64,000 bases of DNA from Pseudomonas sp. SLFW. Its GTDB lineage: Bacteria > Pseudomonadota > Gammaproteobacteria > Pseudomonadales > Pseudomonadaceae. A model generated the notes under the pieces. It saw nothing but the letters and a program-made list of their open reading frames with translations, was not told the origin of the DNA and did not search any database. Position numbers and translations under genes: made by a program. Below, one piece after another: positions 2,799 to 50,299 of this stretch. The stretch covers positions 1-64,000 of the forward strand of contig NZ_JAAAKW010000021.1 of the NCBI RefSeq assembly GCF_009905615.1. The letters run 5' to 3'. Every line of letters begins with the position of its first letter. Within the stretch, counting starts at the first letter, position 1.

Positions 2799-3818
2799 TT
2801 AAATCATTTCCTCGCCACCTTTGCCGCCGAGAACGATCTCCCCGGCCTCCGCCATACGACGGGCAATGGTGAGGATTTCTTTCTGCGCCGCTTCCACGTC
2901 GCTGACACGAACCGGGCCTTTGGCTTCCAGGTCGTCGCGCAACAGCTCGGCAGCACGTTTGGACATGTTCTTGAAAATCTTTTCTTTGATGGCGTCGTCC
3001 GAACCCTTGAGGGCCAGCACCAGCACATCGGAAGAGACTTCGCGCAACAGCGCCTGAATGCCACGGTCGTCGACGTCGGACAGGTTGTTGAAGACGAACA
3101 TGAGGTCTTCGATCTGTGTCGACAAGTCTTCGTCCACTTCGCGGATGGAATCCATGAGCTGGCCTTCGATCGAGCTGTCGAGGAAGTTCATGATGTCCGC
3201 TGCACGCTTGATACCGCCCAGAGTGGTACGCGACGTGTTGGCGTTGCCCGAGAACTGCTTCTCAAGAATCTGGTTCAGCTCTTTCAGGGCCGCTGGCTGT
3301 ACGGTGTTTAACGACGAAACGCGCAGAATGATGTCCAGACGCACTTTGTGGTCGAAATGGCTCAGCACTTCACCGGCCTGGTCGGCGTCGAGGTACGCGA
3401 CGACGATGGCCTGAATCTGCGGGTGCTCGTAGCGAATGACGTCAGCAACGGCGCGCGGCTCCATCCACTTCAGGCTGTCCAGGCCGCTGGTGTTGCCGCC
3501 CAGCAGGATGCGGTCGATCAGGCCGTTGGCCTTGTCTTCGCCCAGCGCCTGCGTCAGCATTTTGCGAATGTAGCCGTCGGAGCCGATGCCCACGCCGGTC
3601 TGGTCGCCGATGACGTCGACGAACTCGCTCATCACCTGCTCGACCTGCTCGCGGTGCACGTTGCGCATCTGCGCCATGGCCACGCCCACACGCTGAACCT
3701 CTTTAGGGCCCATGTGGCGCAACACCTGAGCGGCGTCCGTCTCACCGAGGGTGAGGAGCAGGATCGCAGCCTTATCGACACGGGTCATTTTGACCGCAGC
3801 AGCACGACTATCACTCAT
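2799..3818 (-). CDS. fliG: flagellar motor switch protein FliG
   Basis: FliG is the rotor protein that contacts the stator. It binds FliF through its N-terminal domain and FliM through its middle domain. The EHPQ motif is at 131-134 and the hinge MFVF at 240-243. The torque-helix charges are present at K271, R288, D295 and D296, equivalent to E. coli K264, R281, D288 and D289. The length of 339 residues is typical. The start overlaps the end of fliF by 8 bp. Confidence 0.98.
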   Translation of the reverse strand: MSDSRAAAVKMTRVDKAAILLLTLGETDAAQVLRHMGPKEVQRVGVAMAQMRNVHREQVEQVMSEFVDVIGDQTGVGIGSDGYIRKMLTQALGEDKANGLIDRILLGGNTSGLDSLKWMEPRAVADVIRYEHPQIQAIVVAYLDADQAGEVLSHFDHKVRLDIILRVSSLNTVQPAALKELNQILEKQFSGNANTSRTTLGGIKRAADIMNFLDSSIEGQLMDSIREVDEDLSTQIEDLMFVFNNLSDVDDRGIQALLREVSSDVLVLALKGSDDAIKEKIFKNMSKRAAELLRDDLEAKGPVRVSDVEAAQKEILTIARRMAEAGEIVLGGKGGEEMI

Positions 3819-5589
3819 CTGTGTTAATCCACTCTTTTACGACCTGAGCCACCCGAGCCGGGTCTTCAGCCACCAGGCTCTTGATTGCGTTGAGCTGCGC
3901 GTCATAACCCTCGGTCGGGCTCGGCAGCAGGATACTTTGCGGGCCACCCAGGCTCACGCGGTCATTGGCCAGCTCACCGTCCAGACCGACCATGCCGCCC
4001 AGTTCCACGTCACCGTCGGCATGCTTGCCCTTCGGATTGGTGATGTTGTTGAGCACCGGACGCAGCACGCCGAACACCAGCACCAGGATGAAGATCACGC
4101 CCATCGCCTGTTTGACGATGTCCCAGAACCAGGGCTGCTGATAGAACGCGATGTCAGGAATCACTTCGCCACGGTCGGTGGAGAACGGCACGTTGATCAC
4201 GCTCACGCTGTCGCCACGGGCTGCGTCAAAGCCAACGGCGTCCTGCACCAGACGGGTGAAGCGCGCCAATTGATCGGCGGTCCACGGCACCATGGTGGTT
4301 TCGCCGTTGGCCGGGTTGAGCTTGACCTGATCGTCCACCACGACTGCGACAGAGAGGCGATTGATCTTGCCCTGCTGTTGCTTGGTGTGGCTGATGGAGC
4401 GGTCCAGCTCGAAGTTCTTGGTCGATTGATTACGTTTGTCGGCCGGGTACGGCGCGAGCATCGGCTGACCGGTGGCCGGGTCCATGATCTGCTGACCATT
4501 GGCGTCCAGCAACGGTTGGCCCGGGGCGATCGGACCGGCAGCGCCTGCGGCACCGGCGGTGGCGTTCTGTGGCGCAGTGGCCGGGCCCGGTGGCTGGTTG
4601 CTCAAGGCACCCGGCACGCCTTGCGGACCGCTGCCGCTGGAGCGTTGTTCGGTGGTGGTCTGCTCGCTGCGCAATGCAGGCTGATCAGGGTTGAAGCTCT
4701 CGGCGGTGGACTCGACCGCGCTGAAATCAACGTCGGCCGACACTTCTGCCTTGTAGCGGTCATTGCCCAGCACCGGCTGCAGGATGTTCTGGACACGCTG
4801 AGTCAGCATGGTTTCCATGCGCCGGGTGTAGTCGAATTGCTTGCCCGCCATGGTCAGTTCCGAGTTCTCACCCAGGTCCGACAGCAGGTTGCCTTTCTGG
4901 TCGACGACGGTGACCTGAGACTTGGTCAGCTCGGGAACACTGGTCGCCACCAGATTGACGATGGCGGTCACCTGACCTGGCTCCAGGCTGCGCCCGGCGT
5001 ACATTTCAACCAGCACCGAAGCGGTCGGCTTGCGGTCGTCACGGACGAACACCGAGCTTTTCGGAATCGCCAGGTGAACGCGAGCGGCCTTGATGTTGTT
5101 AAGGCTGGAAATGGTGCGCGCCAGTTCGCCTTCCAGGCCACGACGATAACGGGTGGCTTCCATGAACTGGCTGGTGCCGAGGCCCTGATCCTTGTCGAGA
5201 ATCTCGAAGCCGACGTTGCCATCGGTCTGCGCGATACCGGCACCGGCCAGCTTGATGCGGGCACGGGACAGGTCGTCGGACTTGACCAGCAAGGCACCGG
5301 AGTTCGGCTCGACGGTGTACGGAATGTCAGCCTGGGCCAGCGTGTCCATCACCTGCTTGGTGTCCATGCCCGACAGACTGCCGTAAAGCGGCTTGTAGTC
5401 TGGCTGTTGCGACCAAAGCACGACGGCAAAACCAATCGCCACGCTGGCGGCCAGACCGACCATGAGGCCGACCTGACGCAGCATGGTCATCTCGGAAAGA
5501 TTTTGCAGGAACGCCAGCCCGAACACCGGGGGCTTGCTTCCTGTCGCACCCGCTTTTGCAGGTACGTTATCGGCGACGGCTTCAGCCAT
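3811..5589 (-). CDS. fliF: flagellar MS-ring protein FliF
   Basis: FliF forms the MS ring in the inner membrane and is the platform for the export gate and C ring. The 592-residue protein has a first transmembrane helix at about 38-59 and a second at about 490-513. Between them is the large periplasmic region, with ring-building motifs and a Pro/Gly/Ala-rich low-complexity insert near 320-380. The cytoplasmic C-tail (ending EWINTDE) is the FliG-binding segment. The gene follows fliE by 14 bp. Confidence 0.98.
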   Translation of the reverse strand: MAEAVADNVPAKAGATGSKPPVFGLAFLQNLSEMTMLRQVGLMVGLAASVAIGFAVVLWSQQPDYKPLYGSLSGMDTKQVMDTLAQADIPYTVEPNSGALLVKSDDLSRARIKLAGAGIAQTDGNVGFEILDKDQGLGTSQFMEATRYRRGLEGELARTISSLNNIKAARVHLAIPKSSVFVRDDRKPTASVLVEMYAGRSLEPGQVTAIVNLVATSVPELTKSQVTVVDQKGNLLSDLGENSELTMAGKQFDYTRRMETMLTQRVQNILQPVLGNDRYKAEVSADVDFSAVESTAESFNPDQPALRSEQTTTEQRSSGSGPQGVPGALSNQPPGPATAPQNATAGAAGAAGPIAPGQPLLDANGQQIMDPATGQPMLAPYPADKRNQSTKNFELDRSISHTKQQQGKINRLSVAVVVDDQVKLNPANGETTMVPWTADQLARFTRLVQDAVGFDAARGDSVSVINVPFSTDRGEVIPDIAFYQQPWFWDIVKQAMGVIFILVLVFGVLRPVLNNITNPKGKHADGDVELGGMVGLDGELANDRVSLGGPQSILLPSPTEGYDAQLNAIKSLVAEDPARVAQVVKEWINTDE

Positions 5590-5933: not shown

Positions 5934-5995
5934 GGACTTCTCTCTCAAAGGGGCCGCAAATTTTTGACACCGATTCAGCGGTTACCCATGTAGTA

Positions 5996-6010
5996 GCAAC
6001 AACGGTGCCA
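5996..6010 (-). promoter_or_regulatory. sigma54 promoter of fliEFGHIJ
   Basis: On the minus strand this reads TGGCAC-CGTTG-TTGC followed by T, an exact match to the RpoN -24/-12 consensus. The predicted start point is near 5984, giving a leader of about 50 nt before fliE. FleR or FleQ is the expected activator. Confidence 0.9.
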
Positions 6011-6084
6011 GACCAATGGCGGCACTGTGCCAGCTTTTGTGAAAGTATTGGGAGGGTTACAGAACATCATGCGCGAGGGCTGCA

Positions 6085-6211
6085 GGAGCGTGGCTTGTCC
6101 CACGATCGGCGGGGAACCCGCCGCAAATCCATGCCACGCGGTGTGTCAAACGATCCGCATGAATACATATTGCTGCCGGTGCCCGGCAGATCGCGGGACA
6201 AGCCACGCTCC
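6085..6211. repeat. inverted pair of REP palindromes (REPIN)
   Basis: Two 22-bp arms (6085-6106 and 6190-6211) are inverted copies of a GGAGCGTGGCTTGTCCC-type sequence with one mismatch, separated by about 83 bp. This is a known Pseudomonas REP family. It sits between the fleR stop and the fliE promoter and may act as a transcript end. Confidence 0.85.
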
Positions 6212-6229
6212 TACACAGGCCGGTGAAAC

Positions 6230-7657
6230 TCAACTGGCGAACAGATACCCCTCGACGTCCATCCCCGCATCCCTCATCTGCGCCAGCTTGTAGCGCAATG
6301 TACGCGGGCTGATACCCAGGCGTTCGGCGGCCTCCTTGCGGCGGCCGCGCTCGGCGCGCAGGGTGTCGATGATCATCTGGAACTCGCGGCGACGCAGGTC
6401 TTCACCCAGCGCTCCGGCCAGTTCGCCGCCGATTGCGTCCGACGACGATTCCGTGACACTGGGCATTGTCGGCAGCGGCGGCAGAACCTGAAGCGCCGGC
6501 GCAGACGGAATGACCGACGCGAAGCTGATCGGGCCTGCGAGGCAGAAGTCCTCAGCCTGAATCACCCCGCCCTGCTGCAGAATCAACGCACGCTGCACGG
6601 CGTTGTCCAGCTCGCGAACATTGCCCGGCCAGCTGTAACCGACCAGGCACTTCTGCGCCTCGGCCGACAACCGCACCGGCGCGTGCTTCATTTTATTGAC
6701 GTGCTTGGCCAGCAGACGCTCAGCCAACGGCAGAATATCGCCAGGACGCTGACGCAGCGGCTGCCACGCCAGTGGAAACACCGACAAGCGATAGAACAGG
6801 TCTTCACGGAAACGCCCCGCCGCCACTTCGCCCGCCAGATCGCGGTTGGTGGTGGCGAGCACGCGGATGTCCAGTTCGATAGGCTTGCGCGCACCGACGC
6901 GCTCCACTTCGCGTTCCTGCAAAACCCGCAGCAGCTTGGCCTGCAAGCCCATGGGCATCTCGGAAATCTCGTCGAGCAGAATCGTGCCGCCATCGGCTTG
7001 TTCAAATTTGCCCGCCTGGGCCGCGATGGCGCCAGTAAAGGAGCCCTTCTCGTGGCCAAACAGCGTGGCCTCCAGCATGTTGTCCGGAATGGCGGCGCAG
7101 TTGATGGCGATGAACGGCTTGCCCGCCCGGGGCGACTGCTGGTGAATGAAGCGCGCCAACACTTCCTTGCCGGTCCCGGACTCGCCGGAAATCAGCACGG
7201 TGGAATCACTCTTCGCCACGCGGCTCGCCAGGTTCAGCAATTGCGCACTGGCAGGCTCGACGGCAATCGGCCCCTCGCCATCGGCAGGCCCCAGACGGCC
7301 CAGCGCGTGGCGAGCGACCAGCGCCAGCAACGCCTTGGGCTCAAACGGCTTGACCAGGTAATCGGCGGCGCCTTGACGCATCGCTTCAACGGCCCGATCC
7401 ACCGCGCCATGGGCGGTCATCAGCAGCACCGGCAATTGCGGGTAGCGGCTGCGCAACTGGGCGAGCAACTGGTGGCCGTCCATGCCCGGCATGTTGACGT
7501 CGCTGATCACCAGACTGAACGAACGCTCGGCCGCCGCCAGCAAGGCGTCTTCCGCCGAACCGACGGCATGGAAATCGTGGCCGGCCAGCTCCAGGGTTTC
7601 GCCCAGAGCTTCGCGGAGCGAATGATCGTCCTCGACCAGCAATACGTTGATCGTCAT
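6230..7657 (-). CDS. fleR: sigma54-dependent response regulator FleR
   Basis: FleR is the NtrC-type response regulator partner of FleS. It activates class III flagellar genes (basal body and hook) from sigma54 promoters. The receiver domain at 1-120 has the phospho-acceptor D53 and the conserved T81 and K103 region. The AAA+ domain has Walker A GESGTGKE at 158-165. The sigma54-contact loop reads GSFTGA (205-210) rather than GAFTGA. A Fis-type helix-turn-helix ends the protein. The start overlaps the fleS stop by 4 bp (ATGA). Confidence 0.96.
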   Translation of the reverse strand: MTINVLLVEDDHSLREALGETLELAGHDFHAVGSAEDALLAAAERSFSLVISDVNMPGMDGHQLLAQLRSRYPQLPVLLMTAHGAVDRAVEAMRQGAADYLVKPFEPKALLALVARHALGRLGPADGEGPIAVEPASAQLLNLASRVAKSDSTVLISGESGTGKEVLARFIHQQSPRAGKPFIAINCAAIPDNMLEATLFGHEKGSFTGAIAAQAGKFEQADGGTILLDEISEMPMGLQAKLLRVLQEREVERVGARKPIELDIRVLATTNRDLAGEVAAGRFREDLFYRLSVFPLAWQPLRQRPGDILPLAERLLAKHVNKMKHAPVRLSAEAQKCLVGYSWPGNVRELDNAVQRALILQQGGVIQAEDFCLAGPISFASVIPSAPALQVLPPLPTMPSVTESSSDAIGGELAGALGEDLRRREFQMIIDTLRAERGRRKEAAERLGISPRTLRYKLAQMRDAGMDVEGYLFAS

Positions 7658-8880
7658 GAGTCGTTACCTGTGGCGCTGACGCCCGGAATCAGCGGCAAAG
7701 AAACGATGGCACAGGTACCGCGACCCGGACGCGAACGGAATTGCACCTGTCCCTGGTGAGCGCGAGCGACCGCCGTGACCACCGCCAGCCCCAAGCCAGT
7801 GCCCGTGGTCTTGGTGGTGAAGAACGGTTCGCCGATCCGCGCCAACGCAGCGGCATCGATGCCACTGCCGTTGTCGCTGATGCACAGCCGCAGCGTGTTA
7901 CCCCGGTTGTACGCATGAATTTTGACGCGCGCGCCCGGACCACTGGCCTGCACGGCGTTTTCGACGAGGTTGAGCAGCGCCCCGACGAGGGTGTCACGGT
8001 TGCACAGCAATTCGCCGTCTGCGCTGTTGCACTGCCAACGCACAGACACATCACGCACGTGAGTCTGGGCCGCCGACTCCAGCGCCTCGACCAGGGCTTG
8101 CGGCGCCAAGCGGTCGGTCAGCGGCAGCTCGCCACGGGCAAACACCAGCATGTCCCGCACCTGATGCTCCAGCTCGTGCAGACGCTCTTTCAAGCGCCCC
8201 GCAAAACGCTGCTGAGTTTCGACGTTCAGGACCTGCTCGGTAAGATGACTGGCGTAAATCATCGCGGCGGACAGCGGGGTGCGAATCTGATGGGCCAGCG
8301 ACGCGACCATTCGTCCCAGCGATGAAAGCCGTTCGTGGCGCGCCAACTGGCTTTGCAGGTGGCGGGTTTCAGTCAGGTCGTTGAGCAACACCAACTGACC
8401 CGGTTCGGCGTCCAGCGAGCGGGTGGCGATGGACAGGCGACGGCCATCTTTCAAGGAGATTTCGTGACCGTCGTCCTCGCGAGGCGCGAAGCAACGGGCG
8501 ATGACGTGACGCCAGAGCATGCCGATCAGCGGCTCGCCCAACAAATCGATCGCCGCCGGGTTGGCCTCGCGCACGGTGCCAGTGCCATCGATGACGATAA
8601 CGCCACCGGGCAGCAGGTCCAGCAGGTGTTGAAGGCGGTTCGCCAGACGCTCTTTCTCCGCCAGCTCCTCCATGCGCTGCGCACTGACCACCGCCAACTC
8701 ACCCTTGAGTTCGGTGACCCGCGCTTCCAGCAGGCTGTAGGAGTCGGTCAGTTGCACCGACATCTGGTTGAACAGGGCGAACGCCTGCTCCAAACCCTGT
8801 CGACTTTCCACTTCCGGGGACGGCTGCACTTGCGAACCTGGCAAGACGGGTTCGGAAGACATCTGAGCGGCCTGGGGCAT
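7654..8880 (-). CDS. fleS: flagellar sensor histidine kinase FleS
   Basis: FleS is the histidine kinase that phosphorylates FleR. The 408-residue protein has no transmembrane segment, so it senses a cytoplasmic signal. It has a helical N-terminus, a PAS domain at about 80-175, an H-box SLAHQIRTPL with the phosphorylated H197, and a HATPase domain with N-box (NLVENAVQA), DNGSGID and TGTGLGLAV. GAGAG precedes the ATG at 8880. It is co-transcribed with fleR from a sigma54 promoter. Confidence 0.96.
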   Translation of the reverse strand: MPQAAQMSSEPVLPGSQVQPSPEVESRQGLEQAFALFNQMSVQLTDSYSLLEARVTELKGELAVVSAQRMEELAEKERLANRLQHLLDLLPGGVIVIDGTGTVREANPAAIDLLGEPLIGMLWRHVIARCFAPREDDGHEISLKDGRRLSIATRSLDAEPGQLVLLNDLTETRHLQSQLARHERLSSLGRMVASLAHQIRTPLSAAMIYASHLTEQVLNVETQQRFAGRLKERLHELEHQVRDMLVFARGELPLTDRLAPQALVEALESAAQTHVRDVSVRWQCNSADGELLCNRDTLVGALLNLVENAVQASGPGARVKIHAYNRGNTLRLCISDNGSGIDAAALARIGEPFFTTKTTGTGLGLAVVTAVARAHQGQVQFRSRPGRGTCAIVSLPLIPGVSATGNDS

Positions 8881-8933
8881 AGTTGATCTCTCGGTGGCGA
8901 ACCGTCAGTAAACGGTATGTTGCGAGAGACTTA

Positions 8934-8948
8934 GCAATCCTCGTGCCG
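8934..8948 (-). promoter_or_regulatory. sigma54 promoter of fleSR
   Basis: The minus strand reads CGGCAC-GAGGA-TTGC followed by T, fitting YGGCACG-N4-TTGCW. The predicted start is near 8922, about 41 nt before fleS. The promoter abuts the fleQ terminator with no spare bases. FleQ is the expected activator. Confidence 0.9.
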
Positions 8949-8981
8949 AAAAAAAACCGCTGAAAAATCAGCGGTCTTTTT
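8949..8981 (-). terminator. intrinsic terminator of fleQ
   Basis: An 8-bp stem (ACCGCTGA at 8956-8963, TCAGCGGT at 8968-8975) with an AAAA loop is followed on the minus strand by eight T residues. It starts about 20 bp past the fleQ stop. Confidence 0.9.
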
Positions 8982-9000
8982 GGCGGGCGTCAATCGAGCG

Positions 9001-10476
9001 TCAGTCGTCGAGCTGATCATCGCCTTCGCGACGGCTCATTCCGTACTTGCGCATTTTCTCCACCAACGTGGTGCGGCGGATGCGCAGACGTTCGGCGGCA
9101 CGGGCGACAATGCCGTTGGCGTCGTCGAGCGCCTGCTGGATCAGGCCCTGTTCCAGACCACCGAGGTAGTCTTTCAGGTCCAGGCCTTCCGGCGGCAGCA
9201 TCGCGCTGTTGGCGAAGTTCGGCGTATGCCCGTTGATGGCCACGCGTTCTTCGAGGTCGCTGCGCAGGCTGTCCACCAACTGCTCGTCTTCGTCGTCGAC
9301 GTAGCGGAATTTCTTCGGCAGCTCAGCCACACCGATCACGCCGTACGGGTGCATGATCGCCATGCGCTCGACCAGGTTGGCCAGCTCGCGAACGTTGCCC
9401 GGCCAGCCGTGACGGCACAGCGACATGATCGCCGCCGAGTTGAAACGGATGGACCCACGCTTTTCGTGCTCCATGCGCGAGATCAGCTCGTTCATCAGCA
9501 GCGGGATGTCTTCCACGCGCTCACGCAACGGCGCCATCTCGATCGGGAACACGTTCAGGCGGTAGTACAAGTCTTCGCGGAAGCCACCGGTCTCGATCAT
9601 GTCTTCGAGGTTCTTGTGGGTCGCCGCAATGATGCGCACATCGACGCTCTGGGTCTTGTTGCTGCCCACGCGCTCGAAGGTACGTTCCTGCAACACACGC
9701 AGCAGCTTGACCTGCATCGGCAGCGGCATGTCACCGATTTCATCGAGAAACAGCGTGCCGCCGTTGGCCAGTTCGAAGCGACCTGCCCGGCTGGTGATCG
9801 CACCGGTGAACGCGCCTTTCTCATGACCGAACAGTTCGCTTTCCAGCAGTTCGGCAGGGATGGCGCCACAATTCACGGGCACAAAAGGCGCGTCACGGCG
9901 TTTGGAATGGTAATGGAGGTTACGCGCGACCACTTCCTTGCCGGTGCCGGATTCGCCAAGGATCAGCACACTGGCGTCGGTGTCGGCCACTTGCTGCATC
10001 ATCTGGCGCACGTGCTGGATCGCACGGCTGGTGCCGACGAGGCTGCGGAACAGATTGGGTTCGCGTTGACGGCCACGCTCACGGGCCTGGTCGTACATCT
10101 CGCGATACACCTGAGCGCGGTGCAGGGAATCCAGCAGCTTGCTGTAGCTCGGCGGCATTTCGACGGTGGACAACACGCGTCGACGCAGGTCTTCAGCCAG
10201 GTCAGCCGAAGAATTTTCGCCCATCAGCAAAACAGGAAGGAACTCATCCCATGCCGCGACGGTCTTAAGCAGCCCTTGAAGACTGCCCGGGGCATTTACG
10301 GTGCCGACCAATACGCACAGGACTTCCCGAGTGGATGCCAAAGAACCCACGACTTGCTGCCAGTCGGTACTGGAGCAGGACAGGTTCTCGTCGCCGAGAA
10401 AATTCAGAATCACCGCCATGTCACGGCGGCGCTGGCTATCGTCATCGATCAGCAGAATCTTGATTTCACGCCACAT
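9001..10476 (-). CDS. fleQ: flagellar master regulator FleQ
   Basis: FleQ is the NtrC-family enhancer-binding protein at the top of the Pseudomonas flagellar cascade, and it also controls exopolysaccharide genes in response to c-di-GMP. The N-terminal FleQ domain (1-130) is a degenerate receiver without a phosphorylatable Asp. The c-di-GMP pocket residues are present: LFRS at 142-145 and R185-N186. Walker A GESGTGKE is at 174-181 and GAFTGA at 221-226. A C-terminal Fis-type HTH follows. It is a monocistronic gene with its own terminator. Confidence 0.98.
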
Positions 10477-46646: not shown

Positions 46647-46826
46647 ATGCGCCTGCGCTTCGCCCTCCTCCTTACCCTCGCCTCCCTTTCGGCCGCAGCC
46701 ATTGCGGCCCCGGCGTCTTATTACTGGTGGCAGGGGAAACACACGACGATCTGCGCCCAGACCAGCCCCGGCAAGGGCTGGACCCGGATCAGTGGCGCGT
46801 TCGTGAAGGCGGATTGTTCGATGTGA
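46647..46826 (+). CDS. small secreted protein, unknown function
   Basis: A 59-residue protein with a signal peptide (MRLRFALLLTLASLSAAAIAA, cut near 21-23) and a mature part of about 37 residues with two Cys that could pair. AGGA lies 7 bases before the ATG at 46647. It is on the plus strand between flgF and the second hook gene, divergent from flgF. I do not recognise it. The short length keeps the confidence moderate, but signal, ribosome site and codon use agree. Confidence 0.55.
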   Translation: MRLRFALLLTLASLSAAAIAAPASYYWWQGKHTTICAQTSPGKGWTRISGAFVKADCSM

Positions 46827-46914: not shown

Positions 46915-48726
46915 TCACGTCGCCCTGATCAACGTCTGCATCAACTCCGCCTCGGTGGAAAGGGTCTTGGAGTTGGCCTGATACGCCGTCTGCGCCTGAA
47001 TCAATTCCACGAGTTGATCGGTGAGATTGACGTTTGACCCTTCCAGCAACTGATTGACGATCCCTCCCAGATTCCCCGCGCCCGGCGCATCGTAATTGGC
47101 GACGCCGGACGCATGGCTTTCCGTCCATCGCGTGTTGCTGATCGGGGTCAGGCCTTGAACGTTCGCGAAGCTGGCGAGCATCACCTGACCGATCTTGCGG
47201 TGTTGGCCGTTGCTGAAATTCATGCTGATGACGCCGCTCTTGTCGACGGACAGTTGGTTCGCCTCTCCCGCCGCATAACCGTTCACCACCAGATTGGCGC
47301 TGGCCGACGCGGTCTGATGCTGAGTCAGTTTGCCCAGGTCGATCACGATGCCACTTGCATCGGCCGTCGCCCCGTTTGCACCCCAGCGCCCTCCCGGTTT
47401 TCCGGCGTCCAGCGGCCTGCCAGGCACCCAGCCGCTGAGCGTCAGTTTATGGTCGGCGACCGTCAGACCGTTCCCGGCCACCAGCGAACGCATCTCACCG
47501 TTACTGCCGAACAGCACGCTGGCCGTCAGGGGATCGGTGCGTGCCGGGTCCTGCGGATTGCGACCATCGATGAGGAGGTGGGTTTTCCAGCTGTTGTTGC
47601 CGTCCTTGACGAAGTATTGAGTCAGGAGGTGCTGATTGCCGAGGCTGTCGAAAATGCCCGCCGTCCAGGCCTTGTTGTAGGTCGTGGGGTCCGCAGGGTC
47701 GAACGTCGGCACCGGACGCGCCATCGCCCCATCGGCCGGGTTGAGCATCGGGCCAGTGGCGTCCGTCAGCGGCAAAGCGACCGGCCCGCCGCTGGCGGCC
47801 TGGCTCGGCACCCAACTGCCGTTGACCTGAATCGCCGGCCGCCAGCCCTGCAGCGACAACTCGGTGTCGCTGGTCACGCTCACCGCAGCACTGGCGCCGG
47901 TCATCGACAACCGGCCGAGGGACGACTGATGCAACCCCACCTCCAGCGGCGCAAAGCTGGACGGGTCCAGAGGGTTCACGCCATCGATGAGCAGATACGA
48001 GGTCCAGGTGTTGTCGTCGAGCTTCACGAAATACTGGTTGAGCGCATGGTCCTGCGGCGGGATCGCTGGCTGCGCGTGGGTGATGATGAGGTCGTTGCCA
48101 TTCGCGTCCTTGCCCTTCACCTCCTTGACCTCGGGCACGCCAGCGTCCTGGATGGTTCGGGTGGTCATGCGCGTGTAGGTCGTCGGATCATTGGCATCGA
48201 ACGTGCGAATTGCCGCCAGGGACGCTTCGGCAGCGTCCAGATTCAACGTGCGCTCAATGCGGCTCGTCGCTTTGGGCGCAATGCTGCCGCCCTCGATTCT
48301 CAGATCGCCGCGCACACCGCTGATGACGGTGCCATCGGCGTTCACCGCATACCCCTGCAAGCGGCTGCCATGGGCATCGATGACGTAGTTTTCGGCATCG
48401 GCATGGAAGGCGCCGGAGCGGGTGTAGCTGACGGCGCCGTTGTCGCTCATGACGAAAAAGCCCTTGCCCTGGATGCGCATGTCCAGCGGCTTGCCTGTGC
48501 CGGAAAGCGCGCCGCCTTCGGCGAAGTCCTGGCTGACGTTGGCCAGCTGCACACCGTCGCCGACCGCGGTACGGCTGCCGCCAAATGCAGAGGATGAGTA
48601 GAGGGCGGAAAATTCCGCTCGGGATGATTTGAAGCCAGTGGTGCCGACGTTGGCGATGTTGTTGCCGGCGACTTCCATTCGTTTGTGCGCGGCGTTCAAT
48701 CCGGAGATCGCGATGTTGAATGACAT
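46915..48726 (-). CDS. second FlgE-like hook protein with duplicated middle domain
   Basis: A 603-residue FlgE paralog. The N-terminus MSFNIAISGLNAAHKRMEVAGNNIANVGTTGFK and the C-terminus QLVELIQAQTAYQANSKTLSTEAELMQTLIRAT are those of hook proteins. The middle has two copies of the hook variable unit. Copy 1 (about 175-316) starts TFDANDPTTY and has NQYFVKLDDNTWTSYLLIDG. Copy 2 (about 341-466) starts TFDPADPTTY and has TQYFVKDGNNSWKTHLLIDGR. Each is followed by an LSLQGW/LTLSGW strand. Standard FlgE next door has one. It is preceded by a GGGAG site. It may form an alternative hook or a minor hook component. Confidence 0.93.
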   Translation of the reverse strand: MSFNIAISGLNAAHKRMEVAGNNIANVGTTGFKSSRAEFSALYSSSAFGGSRTAVGDGVQLANVSQDFAEGGALSGTGKPLDMRIQGKGFFVMSDNGAVSYTRSGAFHADAENYVIDAHGSRLQGYAVNADGTVISGVRGDLRIEGGSIAPKATSRIERTLNLDAAEASLAAIRTFDANDPTTYTRMTTRTIQDAGVPEVKEVKGKDANGNDLIITHAQPAIPPQDHALNQYFVKLDDNTWTSYLLIDGVNPLDPSSFAPLEVGLHQSSLGRLSMTGASAAVSVTSDTELSLQGWRPAIQVNGSWVPSQAASGGPVALPLTDATGPMLNPADGAMARPVPTFDPADPTTYNKAWTAGIFDSLGNQHLLTQYFVKDGNNSWKTHLLIDGRNPQDPARTDPLTASVLFGSNGEMRSLVAGNGLTVADHKLTLSGWVPGRPLDAGKPGGRWGANGATADASGIVIDLGKLTQHQTASASANLVVNGYAAGEANQLSVDKSGVISMNFSNGQHRKIGQVMLASFANVQGLTPISNTRWTESHASGVANYDAPGAGNLGGIVNQLLEGSNVNLTDQLVELIQAQTAYQANSKTLSTEAELMQTLIRAT

Positions 48727-48755
48727 GAACTCTCCCTGAGTCGTTTTTCACGACA

Positions 48756-48859
48756 CGTTCGTCAATGCATTGGGTTTCGCGGGCAAATGAATGCAATCGA
48801 ACGGCTCCGGTTCAATGGCATTGATTTGCGGGCGAATTCGATTCTCCCATTGACGAACG
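48756..48859. repeat. 104-bp imperfect palindrome upstream of second hook gene
   Basis: Outer arms CGTTCGTCAATG (48756-48767) and its complement (48848-48859) are perfect over 12 bp. The inner arms pair again over about 30 positions with scattered mismatches. Parts resemble a decayed copy of the GAGCGAATTCATTCGCG REP family. It sits between the flgE terminator and the second hook gene. Confidence 0.65.
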
Positions 48860-48917
48860 TAGGAAATTTCCAGTTATGGAGTGGGACAGCTCTTGATGTT
48901 TTCGGAATGGGACGGAC

Positions 48918-48945
48918 AAAAAAAAAGCCCCTCCGAAGAGGGGCT
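48918..48945 (-). terminator. intrinsic terminator of flgBCDE
   Basis: A perfect 8-bp stem AGCCCCTC/GAGGGGCT with a TTCG loop (48926-48945) is followed on the minus strand by nine T residues, 26 bp past the flgE stop. It isolates the second hook gene from flgE transcription. Confidence 0.95.
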
Positions 48946-48970: not shown

Positions 48971-50299
48971 TCAGTTAACCATTTGAATCGTGGTTTGCAG
49001 GATGGTGCTCTCAGTCGAGATGGTCTTCGCGTTCGCCTGGTAGTTGCTCTGCGCCTTGATCAGCTGAACCAGTTCGCCGGTCAGGTCGACGTTGGATTCT
49101 TCCAGCGCAGAACCGGTAATGTTGCCCAGCGTACCCGATTCCGGCGCGCCGGTGACCGGGATGCCCGACGCGTAGGTTTCACGCCACATGGTGCCGCCCG
49201 CCGGGGCCAGGCCCTGGACGTTGGCGAAGGTGGTCAGCGCCACCTGGCCGATCACTTTGGACTGGCCGTTGGTGTAGCTGGCGAACAGGTTGCCGGTGGC
49301 GTCGACGCTCATGGCGCTGATCTGGCCGGTGTAGTTACCGTCCTGGGTCTTGGAGATCGGACCGCCCACAGCGTTGGTCTGGGTAGTCGCCAGCATGTTC
49401 AGCTTCATCGTGGCGTTACCGGTGGCCTTGCTCTCTACCCACACCGTCTTGCCGGTGCTGTCGAGCGTGCTCTGGCCTGGCTTCCAGCCGTTGATGACCA
49501 AGGTGTTGTCGGTCGCGTTCACTGTCACGTTCGGGCCGGACGTGGTGATCGGCTGAAGGTTGCCGCTGCCGTCGAACGACAGTTTGGTGACGTCCGCAAC
49601 GGGCGGAGTCGCCGCCGGGTCATTGATGCTTCGACCATCGATCAGGCTGTACATGGTCCATTCGTTCGCAGCGTCTTTGCGGAAATACTGGGACAGGGTG
49701 TGCTCGTTACCCTGGTCGTCGTAAATCGGCGTGCTGAACGTCGACGTGTAGGTGCTGGTGTCAGCCGGGTCGAACGCCGCGCCGGTGTTGATAGGCTTGG
49801 ACGAATCAAGGTTGGACGCGATGGAAATCGCCGAGGTGGCCTTCGGCGCCATGTTCGAGTTGTCGATCTTCAGGTCGGTCAGCACGCCGGTCATGACGTT
49901 GCCGTTGCCGTCAGTGGCATAGCCCTGCAGACGGTTGCCGTTGTTGTCGATGATGTTGCCGGACGTATCGGTGTGGAAGTTGCCTGCACGGGTGTACAGC
50001 TTCTCACCGTTGTTGCTCATCATGAAGAAACCGTTGCCGTTGATGGCAAGGTCCAGGTCACGGCCGGTGCCGGTGGTCAGCGAACCCTGGGTGAACTGCT
50101 GGGTCACCGCTGCGGTACGCACGCCGCTGCCCACGTCGGTGCCACCGGAGGTGCCACGGATGGATTGCGCGTATTGGTCAGCGAATTCGGCACGGGAAGC
50201 CTTGAAGCCAACCGTTGCGACGTTGGCGATGTTGTTACCCGCCACGTCCAGACTTTTGTTCGCTGCGTAGAGCCCACTCAGACCGATATTGAAAGACAT
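48971..50299 (-). CDS. flgE: flagellar hook protein FlgE
   Basis: FlgE is the main subunit of the hook. The 442-residue protein has the N-terminal MSFNIGLSGLYAANKSLDVAGNNIANVATVGFK and C-terminal LVQLIKAQSNYQANAKTISTESTILQTTIQMVN helices. A single variable unit (about 175-290) starts AFDPADTSTY and contains SQYFRKDAANEWTMYSLIDGR. It is the last gene of flgBCDE, 28 bp after flgD, and ends at a strong terminator. Confidence 0.97.
   Translation of the reverse strand: MSFNIGLSGLYAANKSLDVAGNNIANVATVGFKASRAEFADQYAQSIRGTSGGTDVGSGVRTAAVTQQFTQGSLTTGTGRDLDLAINGNGFFMMSNNGEKLYTRAGNFHTDTSGNIIDNNGNRLQGYATDGNGNVMTGVLTDLKIDNSNMAPKATSAISIASNLDSSKPINTGAAFDPADTSTYTSTFSTPIYDDQGNEHTLSQYFRKDAANEWTMYSLIDGRSINDPAATPPVADVTKLSFDGSGNLQPITTSGPNVTVNATDNTLVINGWKPGQSTLDSTGKTVWVESKATGNATMKLNMLATTQTNAVGGPISKTQDGNYTGQISAMSVDATGNLFASYTNGQSKVIGQVALTTFANVQGLAPAGGTMWRETYASGIPVTGAPESGTLGNITGSALEESNVDLTGELVQLIKAQSNYQANAKTISTESTILQTTIQMVN

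Follow-up and report, generated by a model that had tools for sequence, protein, structure and literature searches.

Our analysis reveals that, in Pseudomonas sp. SLFW, a stretch of DNA of 64,000 nucleotides (hereafter the window) contains a second hook-class gene, flgE2, beside flgE. There is good support for the class and the anatomy of FlgE2, a genuine hook-class paralog that is conserved among relatives and has its D2 domain doubled. We favor, with a probability of about one half, the reading that FlgE2 is a minor or conditional hook subunit, present below the level of FlgE, that gives a thicker and probably stiffer stretch of hook. FlgE2 would use the cell's ordinary flagellar system for export, be made in smaller amounts than FlgE, probably under a control site of its own, and join the hook as a minor or conditional component. 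Its D0 and D1 would pack like those of FlgE, and one D2 copy (D2b) would fill the normal D2 place. The other copy (D2a), an extra domain at the D1/D2 junction, would point outward, and a hook or hook stretch with FlgE2 would thus be thicker and probably stiffer.

The flgE2 open frame (46915-48726, reverse strand) starts with ATG and encodes a 603-residue FlgE paralog with two D2 domains, whereas flgE (48971-50299, reverse strand) encodes the ordinary hook protein of 442 residues with one D2; both were assigned from the list of open reading frames and from Pfam/NCBIfam matches. With the neighbors named from their translations, the gene order is flgB-flgC-flgD-flgE-flgE2-flgF-flgG-flgH-flgI-flgJ-flgK-flgL. 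FlgE2 comprises D0 and the first half of D1 (residues 1-164; 48235-48726), of which the strand 156-164 leads into D2, followed by D2a, the added copy with a linker (residues 165-330; 47737-48234), D2b, the counterpart of the ordinary single D2 (residues 331-487; 47266-47736), and the C-terminal half of D1 with D0 (residues 488-603; 46918-47265), all on the reverse strand. An earlier note on this DNA had claimed that a TFDxxDPTTY...GW unit occurs twice in the paralog and once in the neighboring FlgE. Pfam FlgE_D2 (PF07559) bears this out, with two stretches in the 603-residue protein and one in the 442-residue FlgE. The unit reads TFDANDPTTY/QYFVK/W/LLIDG/GW in D2a (about 175-295) and TFDPADPTTY/QYFVK/W/LLIDG/GW in D2b (about 341-433). 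Local alignment of D2a with D2b scores 157, whereas 1000 shuffles average 31 (sd 5) and never exceed 60; 51 of 128 aligned residues are shared. D2a carries an insert of ~25 residues that is absent from the aligned syringae-group and graminis-group orthologs. Identity to the D2 of the window FlgE is similar for both copies (51/153 and 46/129); by score, D2b (213) rather than D2a (117) is the better counterpart of that domain. Across two aligned parts, FlgE2 and the neighboring FlgE are 39-41% identical. Between flgE2 and flgF lies a convergent gene for a predicted exported protein of 59 residues with two cysteines (46647-46826, forward strand), the window copy of which has no Pfam or NCBIfam match. 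By tblastn (E ≤ 1e-3), 41 of the 42 flgE2 loci contain a homolog of it, the locus L052 ending just after flgE2, and homologs also lie beside flgE where there is no flgE2 (e.g., L017, L022, L029, and L046).

The N- and C-terminal assembly ends were said to be intact, and they do match the corresponding models: FlgE2 scores above the cut-offs of PF00460, PF22692, and PF06429, which describe the N- and C-terminal D0/D1 parts. It also reaches 454.8 bits with the NCBIfam FlgE equivalog NF004238 (cut-off 400). With the FlgG equivalog TIGR02488 it scores 165.1 bits, below the cut-off of 252.75, and the extra residues of the window FlgG are missing from FlgE2 in the alignment. Furthermore, 107 D0-D1 positions are invariant across 29 FlgE rows; of these, 81 are retained by 90% or more of 28 FlgE2 rows, and the window FlgG matches 65. 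A single D2 is the rule in the other Pseudomonas FlgE examined, and FlgE2 departs from it with its two PF07559 stretches. Among 137 FlgE-like ORFs, fragments included, two D2 hits were found only in FlgE2 copies or their fragments, in the FlgE of one genome (G081), and in L080, with an incomplete second hit (62 residues, 23 bits). Thus, FlgE2 resembles FlgE (NF004238; PF00460, PF22692, PF07559, PF06429) in domain order and ends, and its gene lies beside flgE; it differs in having two D2 domains, a clade of its own, a conserved upstream block, a weaker codon bias, and broken copies in some species. When the genome was searched with FlgE2 as the query, FlgG/FlgF-like rod proteins were found at one place only (contig C14). 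Therefore, we rejected the possibility that FlgE2 is part of a second (lateral) flagellum.

Structure prediction had been proposed as a check for two D2-like domains, and it returned them with the same fold, both confident. The AlphaFold2 model of FlgE2, built with 28 orthologs, has a mean pLDDT of 71; in ten-residue blocks from 161 to 490 the values are 80-95 except in two blocks (75 and 73), and D0 (1-80 and 549-603) is of low confidence and unresolved in this monomer model. Both D2 copies have the same strand order, to which D2a adds a hairpin. The best solved matches (Foldseek list plus fold alignment) are hook proteins: the D-II domain of Pseudomonas aeruginosa FlgE (Z 23.9, rmsd 1.5 over 168, range 150-486) and 1wlg, a fragment of the hook protein FlgE31 (Z 22.3, rmsd 3.6 over 275). 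The hook-class FlgE2 of Helicobacter pylori (PDB 5npy) matches with Z 17.1 and rmsd 3.2 over 261, at 21% identity to Pseudomonas FlgE2. The model of the ordinary FlgE, which is poor outside D2 (mean pLDDT 55) and was used for D2 only, matches the P. aeruginosa D-II domain with Z 22.4 over the range 151-324. The range of the FlgE2 match, of which the ends 150 and 486 are given, suggests that the strand 156-164 pairs with D2b and that D2a is inserted in the fold after this first strand.

This insertion site lies close to that of the extra domains in thick-hook FlgE proteins, near the D1/D2 junction. Residues 1-166 of FlgE2 align to 1-161 of Salmonella FlgE (6jzt) and residues 336-601 to 161-401, which places the extra domain at about the site T167/P168 used in a Salmonella chimera. 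As described in part of PMC5069557, a Salmonella FlgE with Campylobacter jejuni D3+D4 inserted between T167 and P168 formed a functional hook that measured 25.1 nm, the normal hook of S. enterica being 180 Å, and the cells had normal flagellation and swam at about two-thirds of wild-type speed. Hooks failed to assemble with C. jejuni D3 alone at the same site (PMC5069557); some domain additions are thus not tolerated. The suggestion of a thicker hook is therefore plausible by analogy as far as the site of D2a is concerned; the failure of D3 alone weighs on the other side. C. jejuni FlgE2 (Cj1729c) and Caulobacter FlgE likewise have extra domain(s) near the D1/D2 junction, and larger hooks are reported for them (the same part of PMC5069557). 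Second hook genes are already known in other genera, and C. jejuni, like this Pseudomonas, has two (PMC5069557). However, the extra domain of Pseudomonas FlgE2 is a second D2, whereas those of C. jejuni are D3/D4. In C. jejuni, moreover, FlgE2 alone is described as found in the hook (PMC5069557, in part), whereas in Pseudomonas an ordinary FlgE is encoded next door.

Compared over their final 300 nt, the flgE2 genes represent 42 distinct loci: 37 have a full open frame, four are broken, and one (L066) is cut by a contig end. The lesions, for all of which sequencing error is a possible source, are a stop (L060), a frameshift with an internal repeat (L069), an inversion (L079), and a frameshift (L105). 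The gene has thus been lost recurrently and, because four of the 42 loci are broken, is by this comparison dispensable. In L079 (strain PDD-13b-3, about 5970-6510), ~529 bp covering D2a are inverted within flgE2. Phase variation by inversion was rejected here, a lesion or an assembly error being as likely as a switch, because the inverted repeat at the ends is only ~5-6 bp and the case is a single one.

Among 149 Pseudomonas genomes, including that of the window, a long ortholog occurs in eight others (one with an internal stop); seven of these are placed between flgE and flgF; the eighth begins near a contig end. In a ninth genome of this sample, G081, the double-D2 FlgE is of another kind. 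When 398 genomes of the genus, a sample overlapping the former, were searched with the D2a-D2b alignment, 28 matches at E ≤ 1e-80 were obtained, own included. Among 198 genomes of the family, flgE2 was found in our own and in one other (G570). In the other 64 matching at E ≤ 1e-35, the match begins at query position 82 or later, and seven of the longer ones, examined further, have one D2 each; absence from a genome is defined throughout by search E-value cut-offs only. Within the same family, seven FlgE of 498-566 residues from one genus group (g15; L170-L176) have one D2 hit that begins at residue 215-285, and so they carry a different insert before D2. In a collection of named species, 33 loci were matched, namely 31 orthologs and two with ordinary FlgE only (Azomonas and P. 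matsuisoli). Of the 31 orthologs, 28 are flanked by flgE and flgF, and L052, L064, and L066 reach a contig end on one side. Carriers include P. syringae, P. amygdali, P. avellanae, P. cerasi, P. viridiflava, P. caricapapayae, P. tremae, P. asturiensis, P. triticifolii, P. graminis, and P. petrae, many of which are plant-dwelling. The ordinary flgE is open in all 29 named ortholog loci that contain it and in 9/9 flgE2-bearing genomes searched for it.

In a tree of the D0-D1 core (69 of 130 sequences, 286 columns), the 21 FlgE2 rows form one clade with 100/100 support and a stem of 0.47. The FlgE rows from genomes lacking flgE2 were mostly chosen as best matches to FlgE2 or to its D2 region. A recent tandem duplication of the neighboring flgE is rejected: the constraint that joins FlgE2 to the neighboring FlgE type (19 rows, including the orphan FlgE described below) lowers lnL by 37.8 (AU p 0.0026). 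The nearest FlgE rows are from other Pseudomonas, with weak support (82/79), and FlgE2 may accordingly stem from an older duplication or from transfer from another Pseudomonas lineage. In a tree of 68 D2 domains, the 16 D2a rows form one clade (100/100) and the 16 D2b rows another (100/99), and D2a stands apart on a long branch. Since each copy is monophyletic, the doubling predates the split of these 16 proteins.

The double-D2 FlgE of G081 (584 residues, L046) resembles FlgE2 in that the more diverged copy is on the N-terminal side. In contrast to FlgE2, it is the sole FlgE found in its genome, lies directly after flgD, and nests within ordinary FlgE (99/90). Compared with the D2 of L024, an ordinary FlgE, its D2b has 123 of 147 positions identical and its D2a 76 of 119. 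A shared origin of the two double-D2 proteins is also rejected, more weakly (AU p 0.012). By these trees, the G081 protein is a separate doubling, and the double-D2 form arose at least twice. Because it is the only FlgE found there, a hook can probably be made of a double-D2 protein, if the G081 species is motile.

Upstream, flgE2 is set off from flgE by a predicted intrinsic terminator on the reverse strand (48926-48945), an 8-pair stem followed by a T run read from 48945 to 48926, in agreement with the earlier note. A comparable scan located a terminator in 25 of 28 ortholog gaps, the three misses having shorter or mismatched stems. Closer to flgE2 lies a conserved block (48841-48893, reverse strand) with tandem GAnnnnTCCYAC repeats 22 bp apart, then N9 and TGnGAGAAT, which is extended -10-like. 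The block, of the form AGAnnnnTCCCAC-N10-GAAAnTTCCTAC-N9-TGnGAGAAT, is located 71-157 nt before the flgE2 start (measured from GAAA) and was found in all 28 gaps given (part of the 42 loci), including that of the window and one (L060) that belongs to a broken gene. From GAAA on, 18-21 of 21 positions agree, with a motif drawn from those same 28 gaps; shuffled sequences reach 16 at most and the reverse strand 13. Conservation is lower in the upstream repeat (19-28 of 28 per position). Even when 3 mismatches are allowed, the genome of the window has a single copy of the GAAA part. We infer that the block is a promoter with a tandem operator, which could place flgE2 under separate control and confine it to certain conditions. 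The spacing of 22 bp presumably fits a LytTR-type regulator. In a simple pattern scan of the 28 gaps, there was no sigma-54 match and one short sigma-28-like string, and the block is not recognizable as either. The tandem repeat occurs genome-wide at 28 places at up to 3 mismatches, as against 3 for the reversed pattern. We do not claim a regulon, as no coherent gene set was seen; many of the 28 places look by eye like what we take to be a common Pseudomonas repeat sequence, and one other perfect match (C1:377924) has no ORF of at least 80 residues starting within 400 bp downstream on the same strand. The window gap also contains a perfect 13-nt inverted repeat, ACGTTCGTCAATG (48755-48767 and 48848-48860, arms 80 nt apart), with one arm inside the conserved block and the other nearer the flgE2 start; by eye, it is not conserved as such in most other gaps.

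Ranked by flgG, the ten closest ortholog pairs, which all fall within five loci of the P. graminis/petrae group, have dN/dS values of 0.06-0.13 in flgE2 and 0.05-0.11 in flgE. Within flgE2, the values for the same pairs are 0.09-0.24 for D2a, 0.08-0.15 for D2b, and 0.02-0.08 for D0/D1. Over 87 usable of 275 pairs (27 codon alignments, part of the 42 loci), the medians are 0.21 for flgE2 and 0.22 for flgE, and 0.27, 0.24, and 0.15 for D2a, D2b, and D0-D1, respectively. Both D2 copies are, by these ratios, under purifying selection. Between the window and its closest relative (L049), dN/dS is 0.11 for flgE2 and 0.23 for flgE, and this value of 0.11, together with the open frame, led us to reject a pseudogene in this genome. 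These ratios also bear on the strongest rival, which we consider rather unlikely: FlgE2 could be exported yet non-structural, a secreted or surface-acting paralog whose second D2 has another role. A precedent may be C. jejuni FlgE (Cj0043), described in part of PMC5069557 as a hook paralog not found in the hook, and both the separate long-branch clade of D2a and the conserved upstream block would suit such a protein. However, the D0/D1 ratios of the ten closest pairs (0.02-0.08) and the retention of 81 of the 107 FlgE-invariant positions suggest that polymerization contacts are still selected.

For the minor or conditional hook subunit that we prefer, codon usage offers an estimate of the product level. 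The effective number of codons is 41.5 in flgE2 and 31.7 in flgE, the lowest of 12 flg genes measured, and it is lower in flgE than in flgE2 at all 26 other loci given. Since the codon bias is weaker in flgE2, less FlgE2 than FlgE is suggested. The same weaker bias would also be seen in a relic, i.e., an older FlgE under weak selection that is being lost and has no distinct role, and to this may be added the four broken loci of 42 (stop, frameshifts, in-gene inversion) and a median synonymous divergence over the 87 pairs of 1.12, compared with 0.74 for flgE. We nevertheless regard a relic as improbable, as 37 of the 42 loci have a full open frame, dN/dS is close to that of flgE, and the upstream block is present in 28/28 gaps even though the proteins are down to 52% identity.

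Traces of expression come from Pseudomonas syringae. In strain 1448A, flgE is PSPPH_3405 and flgD is PSPPH_3406 (PMC4556710), and PSPPH_3403 and PSPPH_3404 adjoin flgF (PMC9600179), as far as the parts of these reports go. In P. amygdali (L063), flgE2 and a small convergent ORF separate flgE from flgF; therefore, PSPPH_3403 or PSPPH_3404 should be flgE2 by position. Silence in every condition, which the earlier note had held to speak against a hook role, is probably not the case, as mRNA of these two genes was measurable in 1448A (PMC9600179, in part). According to its text, both mRNAs were higher in an rhpS deletion strain and flgF was unchanged; a figure legend states that RhpR blocked flgF, at odds with that text, and the report treats flgF, PSPPH_3403, and PSPPH_3404 as one operon, the latter two under their locus tags without gene names. 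This operon treatment and the legend do not fit a fully separate control of flgE2. A form of the RhpR motif has 6 matches in L063 with 2.5 expected (8 of 200 shuffles reach 6), and two of the six are inside flgE2. In strain B728a, flgF is Psyr_3476 and flgE is Psyr_3478, leaving Psyr_3477 between them, and Psyr_3477 is not among the genes named as lower in the acsS mutant in the portion of the text concerned (PMC3329529). The Psyr_3477 tag was not found in the open-access literature searched, nor was a description of flgE2 in a search of that literature for a second Pseudomonas flgE; the review PMC8036289, in the part covered, does not refer to another flgE belonging to the main flagellum.

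In P. syringae pv. phaseolicola, mutants with a transposon in flgE (PSPPH_3405) were identified by their reduced swarming (PMC4556710, in part), which implies that the second gene, if intact there, does not stand in under those conditions. That FlgE2 is a full alternative hook, replacing FlgE in some condition or kept as a spare, is thus the least probable reading: FlgE2 has all hook-class parts and a double-D2 FlgE is the only one found in G081, yet the swarming defect and the weaker codon bias of flgE2 stand against it. Together with the 4/42 broken loci, these mutants argue against an essential or a redundant FlgE2 hook.

The hook has been described, in part of PMC5069557, as about 120 copies of a single protein. 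The minor or conditional subunit that we prefer has a wider extension, which is tentative and which we would sooner doubt than expect: that in a Pseudomonas group including the P. syringae complex, hooks are built from two FlgE lineages at once, with a separately controlled double-D2 subunit tuning thickness and stiffness. If a two-protein hook exists, the universal joint itself would be adjustable. In the P. syringae complex, a second hook gene that is conserved would offer a way to ask whether bacteria mix subunits to change hook mechanics. Besides, FlgE2 is a natural case of hook-protein domain doubling, with two separate origins.

The genome of the window also has an orphan flgD-flgE pair on contig C34 (L047, 10124-12198), with a third FlgE of 442 residues that groups with the FlgE of strain Bc-h (99/93). 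In the region of this pair (28 kb, L047 and L048), the other 14 window proteins used as queries gave no match. Nearby on the reverse strand are an ORF that matches the harpin family (8178-9347; PF04877, E 2.3e-42; with NCBIfam HrpZ it stays below the cut-off) and an ORF whose C-terminal half contains a polysaccharide-lyase domain (3522-4589). An HrcV-family gene, above the cut-off, lies elsewhere in the same genome, on contig C23.
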